Shown here in pieces: positions 21,061 through 29,611 of a stretch of 64,000 nucleotides of DNA. Position 1 is the first letter of the stretch; each line of letters opens with the position of its first letter. The DNA comes from Spartobacteria bacterium (GTDB lineage: Bacteria; Verrucomicrobiota; Verrucomicrobiia; Chthoniobacterales; UBA10450). The notes under the pieces were generated by a model. It was given only the letters and a program-made list of their open reading frames with translations, made no database searches and was not told the origin of the DNA. The stretch is from assembly GCA_003134785.1 (NCBI GenBank), contig PLCN01000002.1:248219-312218 (forward strand), written 5' to 3'. Both the position numbers and the translations under genes were made by a program.

Positions 21061-22245
21061 ATGCTCGCGGAATTCGATCAGCAACTCGCAAACACCCTGG
21101 CCGAAATCAGATCGCAGGGTCTCTACAAAACCGAACGCATTATCACCAGCCCGCAAGACGCGAAGATCGAAATCACCGGTGGCCGCCGCGTGCTCAATAT
21201 GTGCGCGAACAATTATCTCGGCCTCGCCGATCACCCCGCGCTCATCGCCGCCGCAAAAGAAGCGCTCGACACGCACGGCTTCGGCATGGCGAGCGTCCGT
21301 TTTATTTGCGGCACGCAGGATATCCACAAGGATCTCGAAGGAGAGTTGACCAAATTCCTCGGAACCGAAGACACGATCCTCTATCCGTCCGCCTTCGACG
21401 CGAATGGCGGTCTGTTCGAGACGCTGCTCGGAGCGGAGGACGCGGTCATTTCGGACGAACTCAATCACGCGTCGATCATCGATGGCGTGCGGCTCTGCAA
21501 AGCGCAGCGCTTTCGTTACAAGCACAATGACATGGCTGACCTCGAGGCGAAGTTGCGAGAGGCCAGCGGCGCGCGCGTGCGCATGATCGCAACGGACGGC
21601 TGTTTTTCGATGGACGGAACGATCGCGGAACTGGAGGCGATCTGTGAACTCGCCGACAAATACCAGGCGCTCACCATGATCGACGATGCGCATGCGAGCG
21701 GTTTTCTGGGGAAGACTGGACGCGGCACCCACGAATATCGAGGCGTGATGGGAAGGATCGACATTATCACCGGCACGCTCGGGAAAGCGCTGGGCGGAGC
21801 GAGCGGCGGTTTCACCAGCGGTCGCAAACGGATCGTCGAACTGCTTCGCCAGCGATCGCGTCCGTATCTTTTTTCCAACACGGTGGCGCCGCCGATCGTG
21901 GCTGCGTCCATCAAAGCGCTCGAATTGTTGAGCAACTCCACCGAGTTGCGGGACAAGCTGGAGGAGAACACGAAATTCTTTCGCGCGGCTTTGACGGAGC
22001 GCGGCCTAACGATCAAACCCGGCACGCATCCGATCGTTCCGATCATGCTCGGGGACGCAGCACTCTCGCAAAAATTCGCGGCGCGCATGCTCGAGAAGGG
22101 CGTATACGTGATCGGCTTTTTCTATCCAGTCGTGCCGCATGGAACGGCGCGCGTTCGCACCCAGGTTTCGGCCGCGCATTCGCGCGAAGATTTGGAATTC
22201 GCGGTGAATGCTTTCGCGGAAACGAACGCAGAGTTAAAGCAATAA
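21061..22245 (+). CDS. kbl: Glycine C-acetyltransferase (2-amino-3-ketobutyrate CoA ligase)
   Basis: The 394 residues match Kbl over the full length. It is a PLP-dependent alpha-oxoamine synthase that joins glycine and acetyl-CoA to, or splits, 2-amino-3-ketobutyrate in threonine breakdown. Visible landmarks are '[20 protein letters not shown]', the PLP-ring segment '[15 protein letters not shown]', '[17 protein letters not shown]' and the Schiff-base lysine in '[18 protein letters not shown]'. No tdh (threonine dehydrogenase) is beside it. The gene lies at the edge of the predicted amide-ligase cluster on the opposite strand, which may be chance. Confidence 0.95.
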
Positions 22246-22443: not shown

Positions 22444-23631
22444 CTAGGGCGCCTGAAGCGCGATGCTCGAGCCAACCCAGGTTTTGTCTTTGTTGAATTT
22501 GACGCCCATCATTTTGCCCTGGCTCATTCGGACGAGATTGTTAACCAGCATCGGCTCACCGTCTTCCGGCCAGATAAACATCATCCTGATCTCTCCCTTC
22601 GAGCGCGGCCCGTCCGTGGTCGGAACGAAGTCGGCGTACGCTACTTTCTTCTGCAAAATCCACGCGCGCGGGTCGGGTAGTGCGGCCAGCTTTTCCGCGG
22701 TCGGTTCCAGATCGACGCCGAGTCCCGCGAAAGAGTAGAGCGGCTTCAAGACATAATCTTCCAGCCGTTCGCTCGCCCGAAATTCATCGGCGAAAAAAGC
22801 GGGCGCCGCATGCTTCGAGCGCAAGAACGGCAACGTGTGTTTGCTGATTCGGAAATACCAATTGGGATGGCCGACCCAAGTCACATCGATTTCGTCCTGG
22901 AAATTGAATCCCAGCTTGAGATCCGGGCGGCGGAGCAGCTCATCGAAAATCACGCGGTTGTAAACCCGCTCGATTCGAACCTCGCGGTCATCCCGCCGAT
23001 AGAATAATTGCCTGCCACGTTTCGTTACCTCTGTGAGTGAAACGGGACGAACTCCGAGCAAACTGTCGGTGCAGGCGAAATCGATCCGCGTGTTTTGTTT
23101 CTCCGGGTCGACTTCAAGCAAGACGACCTTCTCTGTTTCGACGTCGCCAATAATCACCTGGCGCAAGAGTTCGGTGTAACTCTCATCGTTGAACCCGCCG
23201 AAAAACGAGACCCAATTTTCCGGAATGGCGGGATATGCCCCGCGCATGCAGCCAACCAGGAACAACTGAAACGCGTAAAGGCTGGGAAAGCCTTGCAGCT
23301 CGATCAGGCGCGGCGTGAGGCGTCCGTCCTCTTCGCAAATCGCGAAATCCACCTGAAGGAAAATCGGATGCGGAGTTTCGCCGGGAACTTCGAGTCCAGG
23401 CGGAATGGCCGTGCGCGCGTGGACGGCAAACTCCGGCGTTCGCAACTGCGCCACGATATCGCGCGCCGCCTCCGTGACCTCGTCCGTGAATTCGCGAGTG
23501 AGGAAAAGCGGACTCTCCGAGATTCGAAAATCAACCGGCCAATATTCGGTCTCGTTCGCGGTGCGAAGAAGTTTCGCGTAACGCTCCGCCGTGAAATCAG
23601 CGTTAAAGCGAGCACGTTGCGTCGAGTCCAT
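22444..23631 (-). CDS. Conserved hypothetical protein, possible permuted ATP-grasp ligase
   Basis: The 395 residues are not in a family I can name. The C-terminal third resembles the nucleotide-binding half of ATP-grasp enzymes: 'LEDYVLKPLYSFAGLGVDL' (Lys plus Gly-rich loop), then 'AWILQKKV' and 'KGEIRMMFIW'. The centre has 'LQVDFAICEEDG' and 'LIELQGFPSLYAFQ', where an Asp and a Glu could bind magnesium. The order recalls glutathionylspermidine-synthase-like permuted ATP-grasps. It starts 3 bp after the stop of the M29 peptidase gene, so the two are one operon, next to YbdK and a second ATP-grasp. A role as amide ligase is inferred. Confidence 0.5.
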   Translation of the reverse strand: MDSTQRARFNADFTAERYAKLLRTANETEYWPVDFRISESPLFLTREFTDEVTEAARDIVAQLRTPEFAVHARTAIPPGLEVPGETPHPIFLQVDFAICEEDGRLTPRLIELQGFPSLYAFQLFLVGCMRGAYPAIPENWVSFFGGFNDESYTELLRQVIIGDVETEKVVLLEVDPEKQNTRIDFACTDSLLGVRPVSLTEVTKRGRQLFYRRDDREVRIERVYNRVIFDELLRRPDLKLGFNFQDEIDVTWVGHPNWYFRISKHTLPFLRSKHAAPAFFADEFRASERLEDYVLKPLYSFAGLGVDLEPTAEKLAALPDPRAWILQKKVAYADFVPTTDGPRSKGEIRMMFIWPEDGEPMLVNNLVRMSQGKMMGVKFNKDKTWVGSSIALQAP

Positions 23632-23634
23632 CGC

Positions 23635-24702
23635 TCACACCAAAAACTTCCCGCGCTCCATCATCTTCAAATCGTCGAACCAAATGTCGAAGTCGCGGCC
23701 GACGCAATCGATGTGGGTTTTGGAAAGCCAGGTTTGTCCAGTGTGTTCGGCGTAGGGATGGCCGAAGGCGATGTGGATGCCGGGGATTTTTTCATCCTGC
23801 AAAATATTGCCGATCACATGCGTACACGCGGTATTCGTTCCGACCGCAAACTCGCCAACGCGATTGCTGTTTTCGTCCGTGCTGGTGTAGGCGCGAAATT
23901 CTTCCAGCAGCTCTTTGTTCTCGCATTGGAGGTCGCGAATCCGATTATCCGCTACTTCGATCGTGAGCGGCGTCTCCTGAATGTCGCCATACTTTTGGCA
24001 GAGGTAATCGCCTACCACGCCGTCCACAACGAAAACGCCGTTGGAGTTGGCGGGTGAAGTGAAAATTTCACCACCGGGCAGGTTGCCCCATTTGTCCGGA
24101 GTGATGATCCCGCTGGTCTTGAGCCATTTTAGCGTCGGCGAAAATACGCCCTCGTAATCGGTGCCGGCTGGCGTGCGGCATTTGATGCGCTCGGTCATGC
24201 GCGCTCGCTCGATCAAACGCTGGCTCAGCGCATCGACCGCGCGAAAATCGGCGCGCATCCCTTCTAACATAATCTGCCGGGTGATGTTGACCATGTGCCC
24301 GTGACGAATGCGGCGTTTGTTCACGACGTCGCTCATCTGCATCCGGGAACGCAGCTCGCCGCGTTGCGATTGCGCGCAAAAAATACTGACCTGCGATTGC
24401 GCCAGATCTTCCAGGATGATTTCCGGCATGTCCGTCAACGGACGTTCCGCATATTCTTCGATGACGAAGACCGCGTGTTCCGCGCCGACTTCTTCTACTT
24501 CCTTTTGCAGGGCAGCCGCAATTTCGCGGGTCACTTCATCGGTGATGATCGTGATCCGCTCCTCCGGCTTCAGGCGCAGACAATCGCGAATGGCGTTCCG
24601 CGCGCCGGGCTGGAGTTCCGGGTCGATCTCTACAGTGTGGGCACGGTCAGGCATGTTGGGCGAAAGAGCCGTCAGCATTGCGCGAAAATCGGGCGGCGGC
24701 AA
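23635..24702 (-). CDS. M29-family aminopeptidase
   Basis: The protein (355 residues from the first ATG; starts at MLTAL or MPDRAH would trim up to 16) matches the aminopeptidase T/S group of two-metal exopeptidases. Metal-ligand regions are visible: 'NLPGGEIFTSP' (Glu), 'GIHIAFGHPYAEHTGQT' (His residues) and 'KTHIDCVGRDFDIWFDD' (Asp). These enzymes remove N-terminal residues from peptides in the cytoplasm. It heads an operon with the 22444 gene and is divergent from a DUF2911 gene. In a cluster with carboxylate-amine ligases it may trim or recycle a peptide-like product. Confidence 0.88.
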   Translation of the reverse strand: MPPPDFRAMLTALSPNMPDRAHTVEIDPELQPGARNAIRDCLRLKPEERITIITDEVTREIAAALQKEVEEVGAEHAVFVIEEYAERPLTDMPEIILEDLAQSQVSIFCAQSQRGELRSRMQMSDVVNKRRIRHGHMVNITRQIMLEGMRADFRAVDALSQRLIERARMTERIKCRTPAGTDYEGVFSPTLKWLKTSGIITPDKWGNLPGGEIFTSPANSNGVFVVDGVVGDYLCQKYGDIQETPLTIEVADNRIRDLQCENKELLEEFRAYTSTDENSNRVGEFAVGTNTACTHVIGNILQDEKIPGIHIAFGHPYAEHTGQTWLSKTHIDCVGRDFDIWFDDLKMMERGKFLV

Positions 24703-24782
24703 TTCAGGATCGCGCGTCTCTTGGAACTCGGGTTTCTTTTCCGTTGGACGCCCTGCAGAAACGCTCGCAATCTAGGAATGCT

Positions 24783-25337
24783 ATGAACTCGCTCAAAAAG
24801 TTTTTCACGATCTTTCCTGTCCTACTCGTTGGCGCATCGCTGCTGATCGCCCAAGAAAAGCCCCGCGTCAGTCCCCACGAAACCATCACGGCCACGATCG
24901 ATGGCAATGAAATCAAAGTGGTTTACGGCCGGCCTTACACAAAAGATCCGAAGACCGGAGAGAAGCGCAAAATCTGGGGCGGGCTGGTTCCGTTTGGCAA
25001 GCCATGGCGAACCGGCGCTGACGAGGCGACGCTGCTGACAACCCAACAACCTCTCCAAATCGCCGGCACAACCATTCCCGCCGGGACCTACTCGCTCTTC
25101 ACGCAGCCCGAGGAAAATGGGGACGCGAAGCTGATTATCAACAAGCAAACCGGGCAATGGGGAACGAAGTACGACGAGAAACAAGATCTTGCTCGCGTTG
25201 CGCTGAAAAAAGAAGCCACGGCCAACGCGGTCGATCAGTTCACCATGGCCATCGAAAAGAATTCCAGCGGCGGCGGGACGCTCAAACTGATGTGGGAGAA
25301 CACGCAGTATTCCGTCGCCTTTACCGTGAAGAAATAG
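24783..25337 (+). CDS. DUF2911 domain secreted protein
   Basis: The ATG at 24783 gives 184 residues with a signal peptide ('MNSLKKFFTIFPVLLVGASLLIAQ'). The rest is the DUF2911 domain, recognisable from 'VYGRPYTKDPKTGEKRKIWG', 'GLVPFGKPWRTGADEATLL', 'IPAGTYSLFTQP' and 'GTKYDEKQDLARV'. This family of periplasmic beta-sandwich proteins is common in Bacteroidetes, Acidobacteria and Verrucomicrobia; its function is unknown. The gene stands alone on the plus strand between two parts of the amide-ligase cluster and may be unrelated to it. Confidence 0.88.
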   Translation: MNSLKKFFTIFPVLLVGASLLIAQEKPRVSPHETITATIDGNEIKVVYGRPYTKDPKTGEKRKIWGGLVPFGKPWRTGADEATLLTTQQPLQIAGTTIPAGTYSLFTQPEENGDAKLIINKQTGQWGTKYDEKQDLARVALKKEATANAVDQFTMAIEKNSSGGGTLKLMWENTQYSVAFTVKK

Positions 25338-25390
25338 GCGGACAGCCTCCCGGGACTGGTGGTTGCATGGACTACCTTCGGCCGAGACAA

Positions 25391-26566
25391 TTACGCGGAC
25401 GTTCCGCTTGAGGCCGAAGCCTGTGGCTCCTCCAGGCTAAGCTGTTCGTAGGTTTCGCGAACGATCAGATCGACCACGGCCTTCATGTCGTGATTCGTTT
25501 TCTCCCACACGTCGAGCTGGCGATCGGCGCCGGTGCCTTCGCGCAAAAGTTTTTCGATGTGGGCCATTTCATTCCGGCTTCCGAGCTGATCGACTTCGGG
25601 TTCCACGAATTCGAGGATTTCGTTGATCAGGCTTCGCGTCTCCACTTCCGCTTCGCGGCCGAAGTCGATCAAGCTGCCGTCCAGCCCGTAGCGCGAGGCG
25701 CGCCAGCGATTTTCATCAATGACCCGCCTCCTGTAAATGCGAAAGCTAAGGTTTTGGCGTTGCAGTTTGTGCAGATGCACGACGACTGCTTGAATGAGCG
25801 CGGCCATGGCCAGCGTGTCATCCACGCGAGATTGCGCGTCGCAAACGCGAATCTCGAGCGTATCGAAAAATGGGTGGAGCCGAATGTCCCACCAAATCTT
25901 TTTCGCGTTGTCCACGCATTTGGTGCGCACGAGCAGCTTCAGGTAATCCTCGTATTCGGACAGGCCTTCGAACGCATCGGGAATGCCCGTGCGCGGGAAA
26001 CGTTCGAAGACCTTGAGCCGATAACCCTTGAAGCCCGTGTTGCGGCCAACCCAGAAAGGCGAGTTGGTCGAGAGCGCGTAGATATGCGGCAAAAAGTAGC
26101 GTGCCTGATTCATGACGTGGATCGCCATCTCGCGATCGGGGATTCCGACATGGACGTGGAGACCGAAGATCAGATTCGCGCGCGCGACCTGCTGCATATC
26201 TTTCACGATCTCTTTGTACCGTTCGCCCTCGGTGATGAGTTGATCGTGCCAATGTGAAAACGGGTGCGTGCCAGCCGATGCGATTTTCATTCCGCCGCGT
26301 GCGGCGAGGCGCGCGAGGTGACTCCGCAGCTCGATAACGTGCGCGCGCGCATCGACTACTGACTGGCAAATCTCTGTGCCGAGCTCCACGACGGATTGAT
26401 GCATCTCCGGCTTGAGTTGCTCCTTGAGCATCAACTTGCCGCCTTCCAGGATTTCCTGGATGTGCGAACGCAATTCGCCCGTCTGCGGATCGACGATGGC
26501 GAACTCTTCCTCGATGCCGAGGGTAAAAACGTGGTCTTTCGGGATCACCTGATCAACAAGCGCCAA
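25391..26566 (-). CDS. Carboxylate-amine ligase, YbdK/GCS2 type
   Basis: The 391 residues match the glutamate-cysteine-ligase family 2. 'FTLGIEEEFAIVDPQTGEL' is the metal- and ATP-binding start, then 'HQSVVELGTEICQSV', 'ASAGTHPFSHWHDQ', 'GLHVHVGIPD' and 'DIRLHPFFDTLEIRVCDAQ'. These glutamine-synthetase-fold enzymes activate a carboxylate as acyl phosphate and join it to an amine; weak gamma-Glu-Cys ligase activity is known for E. coli YbdK, but the physiological substrate of the group is unclear. Translation seems to begin at TTG 26566. The gene follows an ATP-grasp ligase gene on the same strand, with a family A repeat between them. Confidence 0.92.
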   Translation of the reverse strand: MALVDQVIPKDHVFTLGIEEEFAIVDPQTGELRSHIQEILEGGKLMLKEQLKPEMHQSVVELGTEICQSVVDARAHVIELRSHLARLAARGGMKIASAGTHPFSHWHDQLITEGERYKEIVKDMQQVARANLIFGLHVHVGIPDREMAIHVMNQARYFLPHIYALSTNSPFWVGRNTGFKGYRLKVFERFPRTGIPDAFEGLSEYEDYLKLLVRTKCVDNAKKIWWDIRLHPFFDTLEIRVCDAQSRVDDTLAMAALIQAVVVHLHKLQRQNLSFRIYRRRVIDENRWRASRYGLDGSLIDFGREAEVETRSLINEILEFVEPEVDQLGSRNEMAHIEKLLREGTGADRQLDVWEKTNHDMKAVVDLIVRETYEQLSLEEPQASASSGTSA

Positions 26567-26613
26567 GTCGGGAGGCCGCGCAAGTCCATGAAGCGGGCAT
26601 TGGTCTAGCGCGT

Positions 26614-26797
26614 GTCATCCCGAGCCGCGCAGACGGGACCGCGACCATGGGAGGAGCGCTGACCTCACAGTCGCGCCAAGATCACACAAACGGAAGGGTG
26701 GCAGCTTCGACGGTTTGCGCTTCGTGGATCGCGCAGCGATCCTGCGTGGGTTTTCCTGCGACTGTGAGGTCCCTCGCCGTCTGCGGCTCGGGATGAC
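26614..26797. repeat. Intergenic inverted-repeat element (family A, copy 3)
   Basis: It begins GTCATCCCGAGCCGCGCAGA and ends TCTGCGGCTCGGGATGAC. Its left arm carries a 22-bp insert (GGACCGCGACCATGGGAGGA and following) that reappears, inverted, in the right arm of copy 5 at 42942-43118. It separates the ATP-grasp and YbdK genes and fills most of the 263-bp gap. Confidence 0.9.
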
Positions 26798-26829
26798 AAG
26801 CATGAGATGACGCGCTGGCGGACGACTCG

Positions 26830-27795
26830 TTAGGCCAAATCGCGCAGCGAGCGTCCCGTGGCTCCCGCCTGGATGAATTTGCCCCAACTCAAGTTGTCCC
26901 GACCGGGCTGATGTTCGCCGGCTTTGCGGATCGCCATGTCGGAAACGGCTTCGACCACCCACTCGAAGTTCGCCTGGCCCACACTCGCGACCTCCGCATC
27001 CGGCGCCGGATTGCAGAAATCAATCGCGAGCGGGACACCATCGCGGATCGCGAACTCCACCGTGTTCAAATCATATCCGAGATACTGATTCAGGGTCAGC
27101 ACGCCGTCGTGGACCTTTTGCAGTATTTCCGGCGGCGTCTGCCATTCGGTTTGATAACGCAAATGGTACGGCTGCCGCGGTTCGTATGGCATTATCCTGA
27201 CATTCCGCTGATCGATCGAGTAGCAGCGGAAGTACATGTCGAATTTCACTTCCTCCTGCAGCATCATGACGAGCTGCCCGGTCTCGCCGTAGGCCCGGAA
27301 AAATTCCTCCGGATTATTCAGCTTGTAGACGTTCTTCCAGCCGCCGCCGGCGAACGGTTTGAAATACGCCGGCCAGCCGACGTAAGCGAACATCGCTTCC
27401 CAATCGAGCGGGAAGGCGAGATTGCGAAATGAACCGTCGCTGGTGTCGGTGGGGACCTGATGGGACGGAAGCAGCACCGTCTTCGGCACCGCGACGCCGA
27501 TCTTGGTGGCGAGCGCGTTGTTGAAAAACTTTTCGTCCGCGCTCCACCAGAATGGATTGTTCACGACGGCGGTCCCGGTCAGCGCCGCGTTCTTGAGAAA
27601 GCCGCGATAGAACGGCACATCCTGCGAAATGCGATCGATGATGACGTCATAACCGCACGGTTCGCCCTGCACGACCTTGTCGATGCGGACAAACTCCGCC
27701 CGAATGTCCTGGCCGCCGGTTTTGGCGTTGACGCGATCGACAAACGCAGGTGGAAAACTATTTTCCTGACCGAAGAGGATTCCGATTTTTTTCAT
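26830..27795 (-). CDS. ATP-grasp ligase (glutathione-synthetase/RimK-like)
   Basis: The 321 residues show an ATP-grasp layout. The N-terminal Rossmann-like part is 'MKKIGILFGQENSFPPAFVD' followed by 'YDVIIDRIS'. The nucleotide-binding part has 'WPAYFKPFAGGGWKNVYKL' and 'VMMLQEEVKFDMYFRCYSI'. The magnesium site is 'YDLNTVEFAIRDGVPLAIDF' and the following 'CNPAPD'. ATP-grasp enzymes form amide or thioester bonds through an acyl phosphate. It lies 46 bp after the esterase gene and upstream of the YbdK-type ligase on the same strand, an arrangement expected for stepwise assembly of a small peptide-like compound. The product is unknown. Confidence 0.85.
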   Translation of the reverse strand: MKKIGILFGQENSFPPAFVDRVNAKTGGQDIRAEFVRIDKVVQGEPCGYDVIIDRISQDVPFYRGFLKNAALTGTAVVNNPFWWSADEKFFNNALATKIGVAVPKTVLLPSHQVPTDTSDGSFRNLAFPLDWEAMFAYVGWPAYFKPFAGGGWKNVYKLNNPEEFFRAYGETGQLVMMLQEEVKFDMYFRCYSIDQRNVRIMPYEPRQPYHLRYQTEWQTPPEILQKVHDGVLTLNQYLGYDLNTVEFAIRDGVPLAIDFCNPAPDAEVASVGQANFEWVVEAVSDMAIRKAGEHQPGRDNLSWGKFIQAGATGRSLRDLA

Positions 27796-27841
27796 AGTGT
27801 TTTCGCGGACTGCTTACGATTTGTGGGATCTTAAGTTCGAC

Positions 27842-28551
27842 CTACAAGAGCGATAAGTAATACGGGAACGAATTTTTCCAGTCACTCCATTCGTGCCCGG
27901 ACCACTTTCGATCGTCGAGAAAGTGTTTGATTCCCTTGGAGTCCAGAATGCCTGAAAGCCGAAAATTATCGCCGCGGCAATGGTCCCACTCGCCCGTGCC
28001 GAGAATAATGCTCATGTGATTGTATTTCCACGGGTCGGTGCAGTGCGCCATGTAATCGGGCGGGTTGTTGTAATAGAAATTCTCGTCGTAATAGCCGTCC
28101 ACAAATGAAGTCATTTCGAAAGCGGCGCTCATCGAGATGACATGGCTGACTGCGTCCGGATGCCGGAACCCCAGGTTCACCGCCTGCCAGCCGCCGAAGC
28201 TCGCGCCCGCCACCGCTACCCGAGGACGCGAAGTCTCGCGCCGGGCGAAATCAAACACGTCATGCAAAATCACGTTCTCGTAGGCCATGTGCGTCTTCAC
28301 CCGGTCCGCGGGATGGATCGACTTGTTGTACCAGCTCTCTTCGTCGATGCTATCCGGGCAGTAGATGGTGACTCTGCCGGCGTTGATGTACGGGGCCGCG
28401 GCGTCGATAACCCGAAATCCTTGCTCTGGCCGTAGCGGCCGAAAGAGGTCGGAAAAAGCACTAATGGGACTCCGGCGCCGTCGCCAAAGACCAGCATCTC
28501 GAAATCGCGGCTCAAATGCGGCGTCCACCAGCGGATGTAGCGTTCGTTCAT
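27842..28551 (-). pseudogene. Esterase-like alpha/beta hydrolase (COG4947-type), frameshifted
   Basis: The N-terminus 'MNERYIRWWTPHLSRDFEML' to 'FPTSFGRYGQSKDFG' is read in one frame from the ATG at 28551. The rest, from 'IDAAAPYINAGRVTIYCPDS' on, is in another frame. A single missing base near 28409-28411 restores one continuous protein of about 236 residues that matches the esterase family end to end. The nucleophile elbow 'VAGASFGGWQAVNLG' (G-x-S-x-G) and a C-terminal His ('KWSGHEWSDW') are intact. It could be a sequencing or assembly error or a recent mutation. The gene heads the operon with the ATP-grasp and YbdK-type ligases, divergent from a second esterase. Confidence 0.8.
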
Positions 28552-28600
28552 TTTGGTTGATTCGGCGTTTCACCGCCCGCCCGCGTTTGAACCGCGCGGA

Positions 28601-28616
28601 CGATTGAGGTCAATCG
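28601..28616. promoter_or_regulatory. 16-bp palindrome in divergent esterase promoter region
   Basis: CGATTGAGGTCAATCG is a perfect palindrome in the 160-bp gap between the two divergent esterase genes, so it could be an operator serving both. It might also be the core of an intergenic repeat family with only one copy here. Confidence 0.35.
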
Positions 28617-28711
28617 CCCCTACCTACCCGCTGTCCCGCGCCCTGCCAAGTCCGAAACATCCGCTGCCTCTGGACAACGCGTATCTCTTCGACCATACCT
28701 TTTCTTTCAAA

Positions 28712-29611
28712 ATGCCGCCGCACACTCTGACCGGAAATATCCAGTCGCATCCGAATTTTCCCTCGAAGATCCTTCGAAATCGCCGTGACGTGCTCGTTTA
28801 TTTGCCGACCGGTTATCGGCGTTCCCGCACGCGGCGCTATCCGGTCCTGTATCTTCATGACGGCCAGAATGTCTTCGACGCTGCGACTTCGTTTGGCGGG
28901 GTCGAGTGGGGCGCGGACGAAACGGCGCAGCGTTTGATTGCGGCGAAACTGATCGAGCCGGTCATCGTCGTCGCGATCGCGAACACCGGTGAGGATCGCA
29001 TCCATGAATATTCGCCCACGACAGCGCGGATCGACCCCGCCAAGCGGAAACAAAGCAAAGGATTGCTGCGAAGTTATGGGCGTTTTCTCACGGAGGAATT
29101 GAAGCCGTTTATCGATAAACAATATCGCACCAAACGGGAGGCGGAGTTCACGGGACTCGGCGGCTCTTCTCTCGGTGGACTGGCCACGCTGGTCCTGGGG
29201 CTTTGGTTTCCAAATTATTTCACCCGGCTTGCGGTCATGTCACCATCGGTTTGGTGGGATGATTGCGTCATCTACAAAATCGTCGATGCGCTGGACGAGA
29301 CCGCGAAACCGCCGCTGAAAATTTGGCTGGATACCGGGACGCACGAGGAAGGCTGGGAGCGAACCCGGGAATTGCGCGATCGGCTGGTTGAGAAAGGCTG
29401 GCGGCTCTACGATGACCTCAATTATTTGGAAGCCGATGGGTCCGATCATAGCGAAGGCGCCTGGGCGGCGCGGTTGGATCCGGTGCTGCGTTTCTTATTT
29501 CCGCCGCCGCCACCAGTGATCGCCGCGCCGGGTCGCGAGCGATTTTTGGCGGTGCTCGAAAAGTTGCGTTCGCTTTCGAACGGGGCCAAACGCCTCGCAA
29601 AAATTCGCTGA
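28712..29611 (+). CDS. Alpha/beta-hydrolase esterase (enterochelin-esterase-like)
   Basis: From the ATG at 28712 it gives 299 residues; the longer frame from 28553 has no protein-like sequence before this point. The domain matches the esterase-D/Fes superfamily: 'RDVLVYLPTGYRR', 'RYPVLYLHDGQNVFD', the nucleophile in 'TGLGGSSLGGLATLV' and the catalytic His in 'EADGSDHSEGAW'. Such enzymes hydrolyse esters or amides of small molecules; relatives open trilactone siderophores. It is divergent from the other esterase gene of the predicted amide-ligase cluster and probably belongs to it, acting on the product or an ester intermediate. There is no signal peptide. Confidence 0.87.
   Translation: MPPHTLTGNIQSHPNFPSKILRNRRDVLVYLPTGYRRSRTRRYPVLYLHDGQNVFDAATSFGGVEWGADETAQRLIAAKLIEPVIVVAIANTGEDRIHEYSPTTARIDPAKRKQSKGLLRSYGRFLTEELKPFIDKQYRTKREAEFTGLGGSSLGGLATLVLGLWFPNYFTRLAVMSPSVWWDDCVIYKIVDALDETAKPPLKIWLDTGTHEEGWERTRELRDRLVEKGWRLYDDLNYLEADGSDHSEGAWAARLDPVLRFLFPPPPPVIAAPGRERFLAVLEKLRSLSNGAKRLAKIR

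Follow-up and report, generated by a model that had tools for sequence, protein, structure and literature searches.

A cluster of six genes in a 64,000-nt stretch of Spartobacteria bacterium DNA (assembly GCA_003134785.1, contig PLCN01000002.1), hereafter the window, recurs in conserved order across bacterial phyla, soil Verrucomicrobia among the carriers. The genes encode a YbdK/GCS2 carboxylate–amine ligase (YbdK), an ATP-grasp ligase (ATPg), a protein predicted to be a permuted ATP-grasp ligase (hyp395), an M29 aminopeptidase-like hydrolase (M29) and two esterase-like proteins (est1 and est2) (Table 1). We estimate the probability that the six genes constitute one conserved metabolic module making a small peptide-like amide at slightly above one half (about 0.55). 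The product would most likely be a peptide-like or γ-glutamyl amide that is built and then trimmed. A preliminary description of this stretch, made from the letters alone, had named all of these genes. Each was confirmed, YbdK, M29 and both esterases by Pfam or NCBIfam. The description had counted two ATP-dependent C–N ligases; because the predicted structure of hyp395 clearly has a permuted ATP-grasp fold, the cluster has three.

To characterize the conservation of the cluster, we compared the ATPg neighbourhoods of 20 related genomes, comprising 18 loci from the family of the window and two from a further family (f4) of the same taxonomic order. Across phyla, est2 is divergent from a run of est1–ATPg–YbdK–(M29 or a class-I glutamine amidotransferase, GATase)–hyp395, and the flanking genes vary. 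The full set was present in order in 5/18 same-family loci (L032, L033, L034, L037 and L038); est2 was linked to ATPg in 14 of the 18, YbdK in nine, M29 in eight and hyp395 in seven, some of the contigs being short. In both f4 genomes, the six-gene order was intact though the flanking accA, lysM and kbl genes were gone. The same gene set was also found in Opitutaceae. When 84,980 species genomes were scanned, at least 586 relatives were confirmed. The best 80 of these came from Verrucomicrobiota, Ignavibacteriota and Bacteroidota, together with a single genome each of Chlorobiota and Acidobacteriota, and most of them had the genes in the same relative order. Cultured carriers included Pedobacter, Mucilaginibacter and Dyadobacter. 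According to de novo clustering of open reading frames (ORFs) in 63 loci (L077–L139), ATPg was present in 59, YbdK in 58, esterases in 51, hyp395 in 37, the GATase in 26 and M29 in six; no other partner recurred across phyla in these loci. The preliminary description had held that homologues scattered at random in related genomes would speak against a system; the gene order is instead conserved across phyla. The taxa it had suggested for comparison were borne out for Verrucomicrobiota and, in a single genome, Acidobacteriota; no Deinococcus was among the best 80 of the at least 586 relatives, although the search was not directed at this group.

The ligases also co-occurred between genomes. Of 289 Verrucomicrobiota genomes, 11 carried ATPg and the very same 11 carried hyp395, with a patchy distribution within family f16, and hyp395 was detected in all 20 genomes picked for having ATPg, in many of them not nearby. 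Among 148 Bacteroidota genomes, ATPg was found in 60, YbdK (E below 1e-60) in 52, hyp395 in 50 and all three in 46. YbdK and the ATP-grasp protein, whose joint occurrence the preliminary description had made decisive, were together in 50 of the 52 YbdK-positive and 50 of the 60 ATPg-positive genomes. Fisher p values were 9e-27 (ATPg–YbdK), 4e-29 (YbdK–hyp395) and 6e-25 (ATPg–hyp395), figures that overstate the strength of the association because phylogeny is ignored. As the set is tightly kept, with ATPg ∼65–75% identical across phyla, and widespread in Bacteroidota, it should make or remodel something important to the cell.

Neither hyp395 nor ATPg had a significant Pfam or NCBIfam match or a PDB sequence match of weight, so calling an ATP-grasp and a permuted ATP-grasp protein from raw sequence was a good prediction by the preliminary description; structure prediction with Foldseek and VIA comparisons confirmed both. 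The AlphaFold2 model of hyp395, built from 32 relatives, had a mean predicted local distance difference test (pLDDT) score of 93.5. Its top Foldseek matches were a putative glutathionylspermidine (GSP) synthase (3n6x, E 2.6e-15) and eukaryotic glutathione synthetases. VIA yielded Z scores of 26.1 for YgiC, 25.0 for E. coli GspS and 23.9 for homoglutathione synthetase over 339–370 residues, the next fold being far lower (Z 11.9). Residues K264 and K296 of hyp395 align with K498 and K533 of E. coli Gss, which have a role in ATP binding. The fold comparison carries this assignment, as a profile comparison of hyp395 with Gss was not significant (E 0.12). No similarity was detected between the ATPg and hyp395 profiles. 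In two Bacteroidota genomes, a sodium:solute symporter (SSF) is encoded in frame with or directly before hyp395 (L167:4637-7240 and L169:5790-8369). In a further genome (G158:C1:1768280-1769545), the hyp395 match is in two pieces separated by a gap, and the gene is possibly broken or carries an insertion.

For ATPg, the AlphaFold2 model had a pLDDT of 72, and Foldseek matched it to ATP-grasp folds with a probability of 1.00. VIA placed it with the RimK/LysX/ArgX group (Z 17–20), with scores of 19.9 for RimK, 19.8 for ArgX and 18.4 for LysX; the graspetide ligases PsnB and MdnC were also among the close Foldseek folds. Three residues of the amide-forming clade are retained in ATPg: K89 (the linker lysine, invariant in 27 alignment rows), K146 (the strand-2 lysine) and R190 (likewise invariant). 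ATPg also shares the acidic E247 with the RimK/LysX/ArgX group. It differs from RimK, LysX and ArgX in that identity is 10–16%, the last-strand motif is DFCN (D259, N262) rather than ExN, and no LysW-like carrier recurs beside it. The curated RimK family, TIGR00768, did not match the window ATPg, and the ATPg of locus L110 scored 27.9 bits against a cut-off of 143.4. Weak matches to R2K_2 (best E 0.018) and a second conserved Lys/Arg (position 154) after the strand-2 lysine resemble the CDC123-like R2K clade. Members of this clade are defined by having lost the linker lysine and having a further Lys/Arg in the RAGNYA loop (PMC4431377). ATPg thus falls outside that definition, because K89 is kept. 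In the ATPg tree, the two Verrucomicrobiota groups were not sisters; as support was moderate (88/84), transfer of ATPg between phyla is suggested only.

The third ligase was readily assigned. YbdK matched PF04107 (E 1.9e-64), scored 536 bits against a cut-off of 371 for the NCBIfam model NF010039 ('carboxylate-amine ligase') and hit the YbdK structures 1tt4 and 1r8g (E 1e-45 and 4e-44). It passes the PRK13515 equivalog cut-off and aligns over most of the length of E. coli YbdK, but the E. coli gene has none of these cluster neighbours. Another YbdK/GCS2 gene (G000:C25:236036-236872, locus L001) lies ∼38 kb from the window YbdK and is 74% identical to it; none of the other cluster genes is present in the 3.8 kb that were read there. 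In a genome of the same genus, two YbdK copies are in tandem (L033:10407-12800).

The position between YbdK and hyp395 is occupied by either of two hydrolases. M29 scored 50.6 bits against PF02073 (cut-off 27). In an alignment of its profile to AmpS (1zjc), the motifs NLPGGE, RVGE and HxAFGxxY were conserved and AmpS-like metal-ligand motifs were present; the last His/Asp, H330 and D332, are invariant in relatives but lie outside the aligned stretch. Comparison with relatives places the probable M29 start near 24654. In most Bacteroidota and some Ignavibacteriota, a class-I GATase-like protein that matches PF00117 and has conserved Cys, His and Glu residues fills the M29 position. The two are mutually exclusive, no locus having both. 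The GATase was detected in 41 of the 148 Bacteroidota genomes, 40 of which have ATPg, the remaining match being weak (E 2e-4); an M29 orthologue was present in two, both with ATPg and without the GATase. Because two unrelated amide hydrolases occupy one slot, we infer that amide cleavage belongs to the pathway. A reading of the cluster as an anti-phage defence system was considered and dropped, PADLOC having yielded only a weak mads_6 match for M29 (E 0.0045).

Both esterases that the preliminary description counted as parts of the system belong to PF00756. Est2 (E 6.4e-31) has a catalytic serine motif and a histidine that are conserved in relatives, and its divergent position is kept in other phyla; its listed ORF starts at 28553, but the start is probably near 28712, judging from relatives. 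In est1 (31.7 bits), the GxSxG motif, D197 and H227 are invariant in relatives. Relative to these, one base is missing near 28400-28420 and the gene is split over two frames, such that the first ∼48 codons from the native ATG at 28551 lie in a frame other than that of the listed ORF. The frameshift may be genuine or may stem from faulty assembly. The gene is absent beside ATPg in the close relatives L035 and L042. Given its frameshift in the window genome and its absence from many relatives, est1 is an optional cluster member.

Table 1. Features of the cluster in the window (positions are those of the window).
Feature	Position	Strand	Assignment	Basis
hyp395	22444..23631	-	predicted permuted ATP-grasp C–N ligase, YgiC/GspS/eukaryotic glutathione synthetase fold	predicted structure
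M29	23635..24702	-	metallo-aminopeptidase-like hydrolase	PF02073
YbdK	25391..26566	-	YbdK/GCS2 carboxylate–amine ligase, glutamine-synthetase fold	PF04107, NF010039
ATPg	26830..27795	-	putative RimK/LysX/ArgX-like ATP-grasp ligase	predicted structure and alignment
est1	27842..28551	-	small PF00756-like alpha/beta hydrolase, frameshifted here	PF00756
est1/est2 intergenic region	28552..28711	.	divergent, probable promoter region	start codons inferred from relatives
est2	28712..29611	+	PF00756 esterase, divergent from the other five genes	PF00756
DUF2911 gene	24678-25337	+	inside the cluster between M29 and YbdK	

ATP-dependent ligases of these three families each form an acyl phosphate and then an amide, a peptidase or GATase breaks an amide, and esterases break or move an ester. 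In the proposed module, YbdK would convert a carboxylate, most likely the γ-carboxylate of glutamate, to an acyl phosphate and join it to a first amine. ATPg would add an amino acid to this product, and hyp395 would couple a free carboxylate to an amine. M29, or the GATase-like amidohydrolase in its place, could then trim or recycle the product by hydrolysing one amide bond, and est1 and est2 may remove or transfer an ester group. Stepwise assembly by C–N ligases with trimming hydrolases, as the preliminary description had it, is still the best reading and is in part supported: the families, folds, gene order, co-occurrence across phyla and mutual exclusion of M29 and the GATase were observed, and we infer the small-molecule nature of the product, the substrates, the order of the steps and the direction (biosynthesis rather than salvage). 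Several observations weigh against a single biosynthetic module. No substrate is readable from the sequence, and confidence in the ATPg model is only moderate. In the window genome est1 is broken, and in Chitinophagaceae it was not detected beside ATPg. Hyp395 is missing from 12 ATPg-positive Bacteroidota genomes, and in the two of them that were read, a different permuted ATP-grasp protein adjoins ATPg together with the GATase. Moreover, the three ligases are unlinked in some genomes, and on the long same-family contigs L030, L044 and L045, only ATPg, with or without esterases, was found nearby.

The cluster invites comparison with glutathione, glutathionylspermidine and trypanothione systems, in which it is matched by a GCS2-fold ligase (YbdK), ATP-grasp ligases and the pairing of a synthetase with an amide hydrolase; hyp395 shares the permuted GspS/eukaryotic glutathione synthetase fold (VIA Z 24–26). 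By contrast, hyp395 is ∼12% identical to GspS, the hydrolase is M29 or a class-I GATase rather than the Gss amidase domain, there are extra esterases, and the cluster gives no sign of cysteine, thiol or spermidine. One of nine hyp395 relatives matched PF03738 (GSP_synth; E 0.099), and neither the bacterial glutathione synthetase domain GSHB (PF02955) nor BshC (PF10079) was detected in the window genome, in which the controls were detected. Because PF03738 and PF02955 do not support membership, the parallel with γ-Glu-Cys ligase, glutathione synthetase and the GspS synthetase–amidase is one of fold and logic. A low-molecular-weight thiol pathway, in which YbdK makes γ-Glu-Cys, ATPg or hyp395 extends it and hyp395 adds an amine, is consistent with the fold of hyp395, with the lack of BshC and GSHB matches and with the γ-glutamyl:cysteine ligase activity of E. 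coli YbdK (Lehmann 2004, cited in PMC2588565). However, the cluster is common also in Bacteroidota and Ignavibacteriota, for which bacillithiol pathways have been either predicted or demonstrated (PMC6282198), only the minority of sampled Verrucomicrobiota noted above carry it, and no thiol–disulfide gene recurs beside it in the 63 loci. We consider this pathway quite improbable. The literature records no low-molecular-weight thiol from Verrucomicrobia (PMC6282198), so the product might be a new one; this idea is unsupported, and nothing in the cluster speaks for sulfur. A little less doubtful is an independent glutathione-like pathway, in which three differently folded ligases would build a new γ-glutamyl peptide–amine cofactor and exchangeable M29/GATase amidases would recycle it, the pathway being shared as one unit by different phyla. 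If so, this cofactor could be the missing low-molecular-weight thiol of these Verrucomicrobia.

Amine salvage, in which an amine would be glutamylated by the ligases for detoxification or use as a nutrient and the product then freed by the GATase/M29 hydrolase, is unlikely, though it is the least so of the alternatives. In the Puu putrescine pathway, PuuA is the ligase and PuuD a class-I GATase-like hydrolase, and the Bacteroidota version of the cluster likewise has a glutamine-synthetase-fold ligase and a class-I GATase-like hydrolase in one operon. The symporter beside hyp395 is also consistent with salvage, but this link is limited to two genomes, three ligases exceed the need, and oxidoreductases, aminotransferases and aldehyde dehydrogenases are not among the partners that recur across phyla in the 63 loci. 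Similarly, no PuuB/PuuC-like enzymes recur, and the cluster GATase matches PF00117. Protein tagging, in which a protein would receive amino acids or a peptide from ATPg and its partner ligases and lose them again through the peptidase or GATase, appears as doubtful as the glutathione-like cofactor: the folds nearest ATPg are those of RimK and ArgX/LysX, which act on proteins, ATPg is unusually conserved, and a CP_ATPgrasp-like protein joins it in Flavobacteria-like genomes, yet no recurrence of a conserved carrier protein, alpha-E domain, transglutaminase or proteasome-like gene was observed around the cluster, and no small ORF is conserved. COG2308/alpha-E tagging parts were absent from the six window proteins, and no further family recurred across phyla in the 63 neighbourhoods, in which not every neighbour was named. 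A conserved small ORF would also be expected as precursor of a graspetide-type ribosomally synthesized and post-translationally modified peptide with ATPg as macrocyclase. The presence of PsnB and MdnC among its Foldseek matches fits such a role; the top VIA matches are RimK and ArgX/LysX, and no transporter recurs across phyla, making this reading very remote. The idea that unrelated ordinary enzymes lie side by side by chance is equally hard to credit: all the families are common and the flanking kbl and accA are housekeeping genes, but across phyla the gene order and co-occurrence persist and the flanks change. The neighbourhood is not due to chance.

As to prior work, NCBIfam offers no curated name for hyp395, ATPg or M29. 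A search of the literature on COG4947 and COG2170 yielded no functional study, and no description of the gene set was found in the literature searched, although a prior description is possible. Amidoligases with ATP-grasp, GS-like and acetyltransferase-like domains were reportedly treated by Iyer et al. in 2009, the likeliest place for a related neighbourhood to be listed.

Gene spacing within the cluster is short or overlapping. The DUF2911 gene was dropped as a part of it, having been found in none of 20 related loci checked. The flanking kbl (21061-22245) and accA were excluded from the system because they do not adjoin the cluster outside the family of the window. A metagenome-assembled genome titled Williamsia, an actinobacterium (L091), also carries the cluster; the record is probably misnamed or contaminated, as its cluster resembles those of Chitinophagaceae. 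Variant arrangements were observed in Bacteroidota. In two Flavobacteria-like genomes, the CP_ATPgrasp-like protein lies between ATPg and the GATase, at the usual place of YbdK (L152:4629-6053 and L153:4857-6194). In some others, ATPg homologues (∼51% identical) stand beside an aromatic amino-acid lyase, with YbdK ∼9–26 kb away (L156:4747-7231 and L159:3542-5984, the latter equal to L170:11542-13984; genomes G399 and G426). In locus L158, an ATPg homologue is located beside an AMP-binding enzyme.

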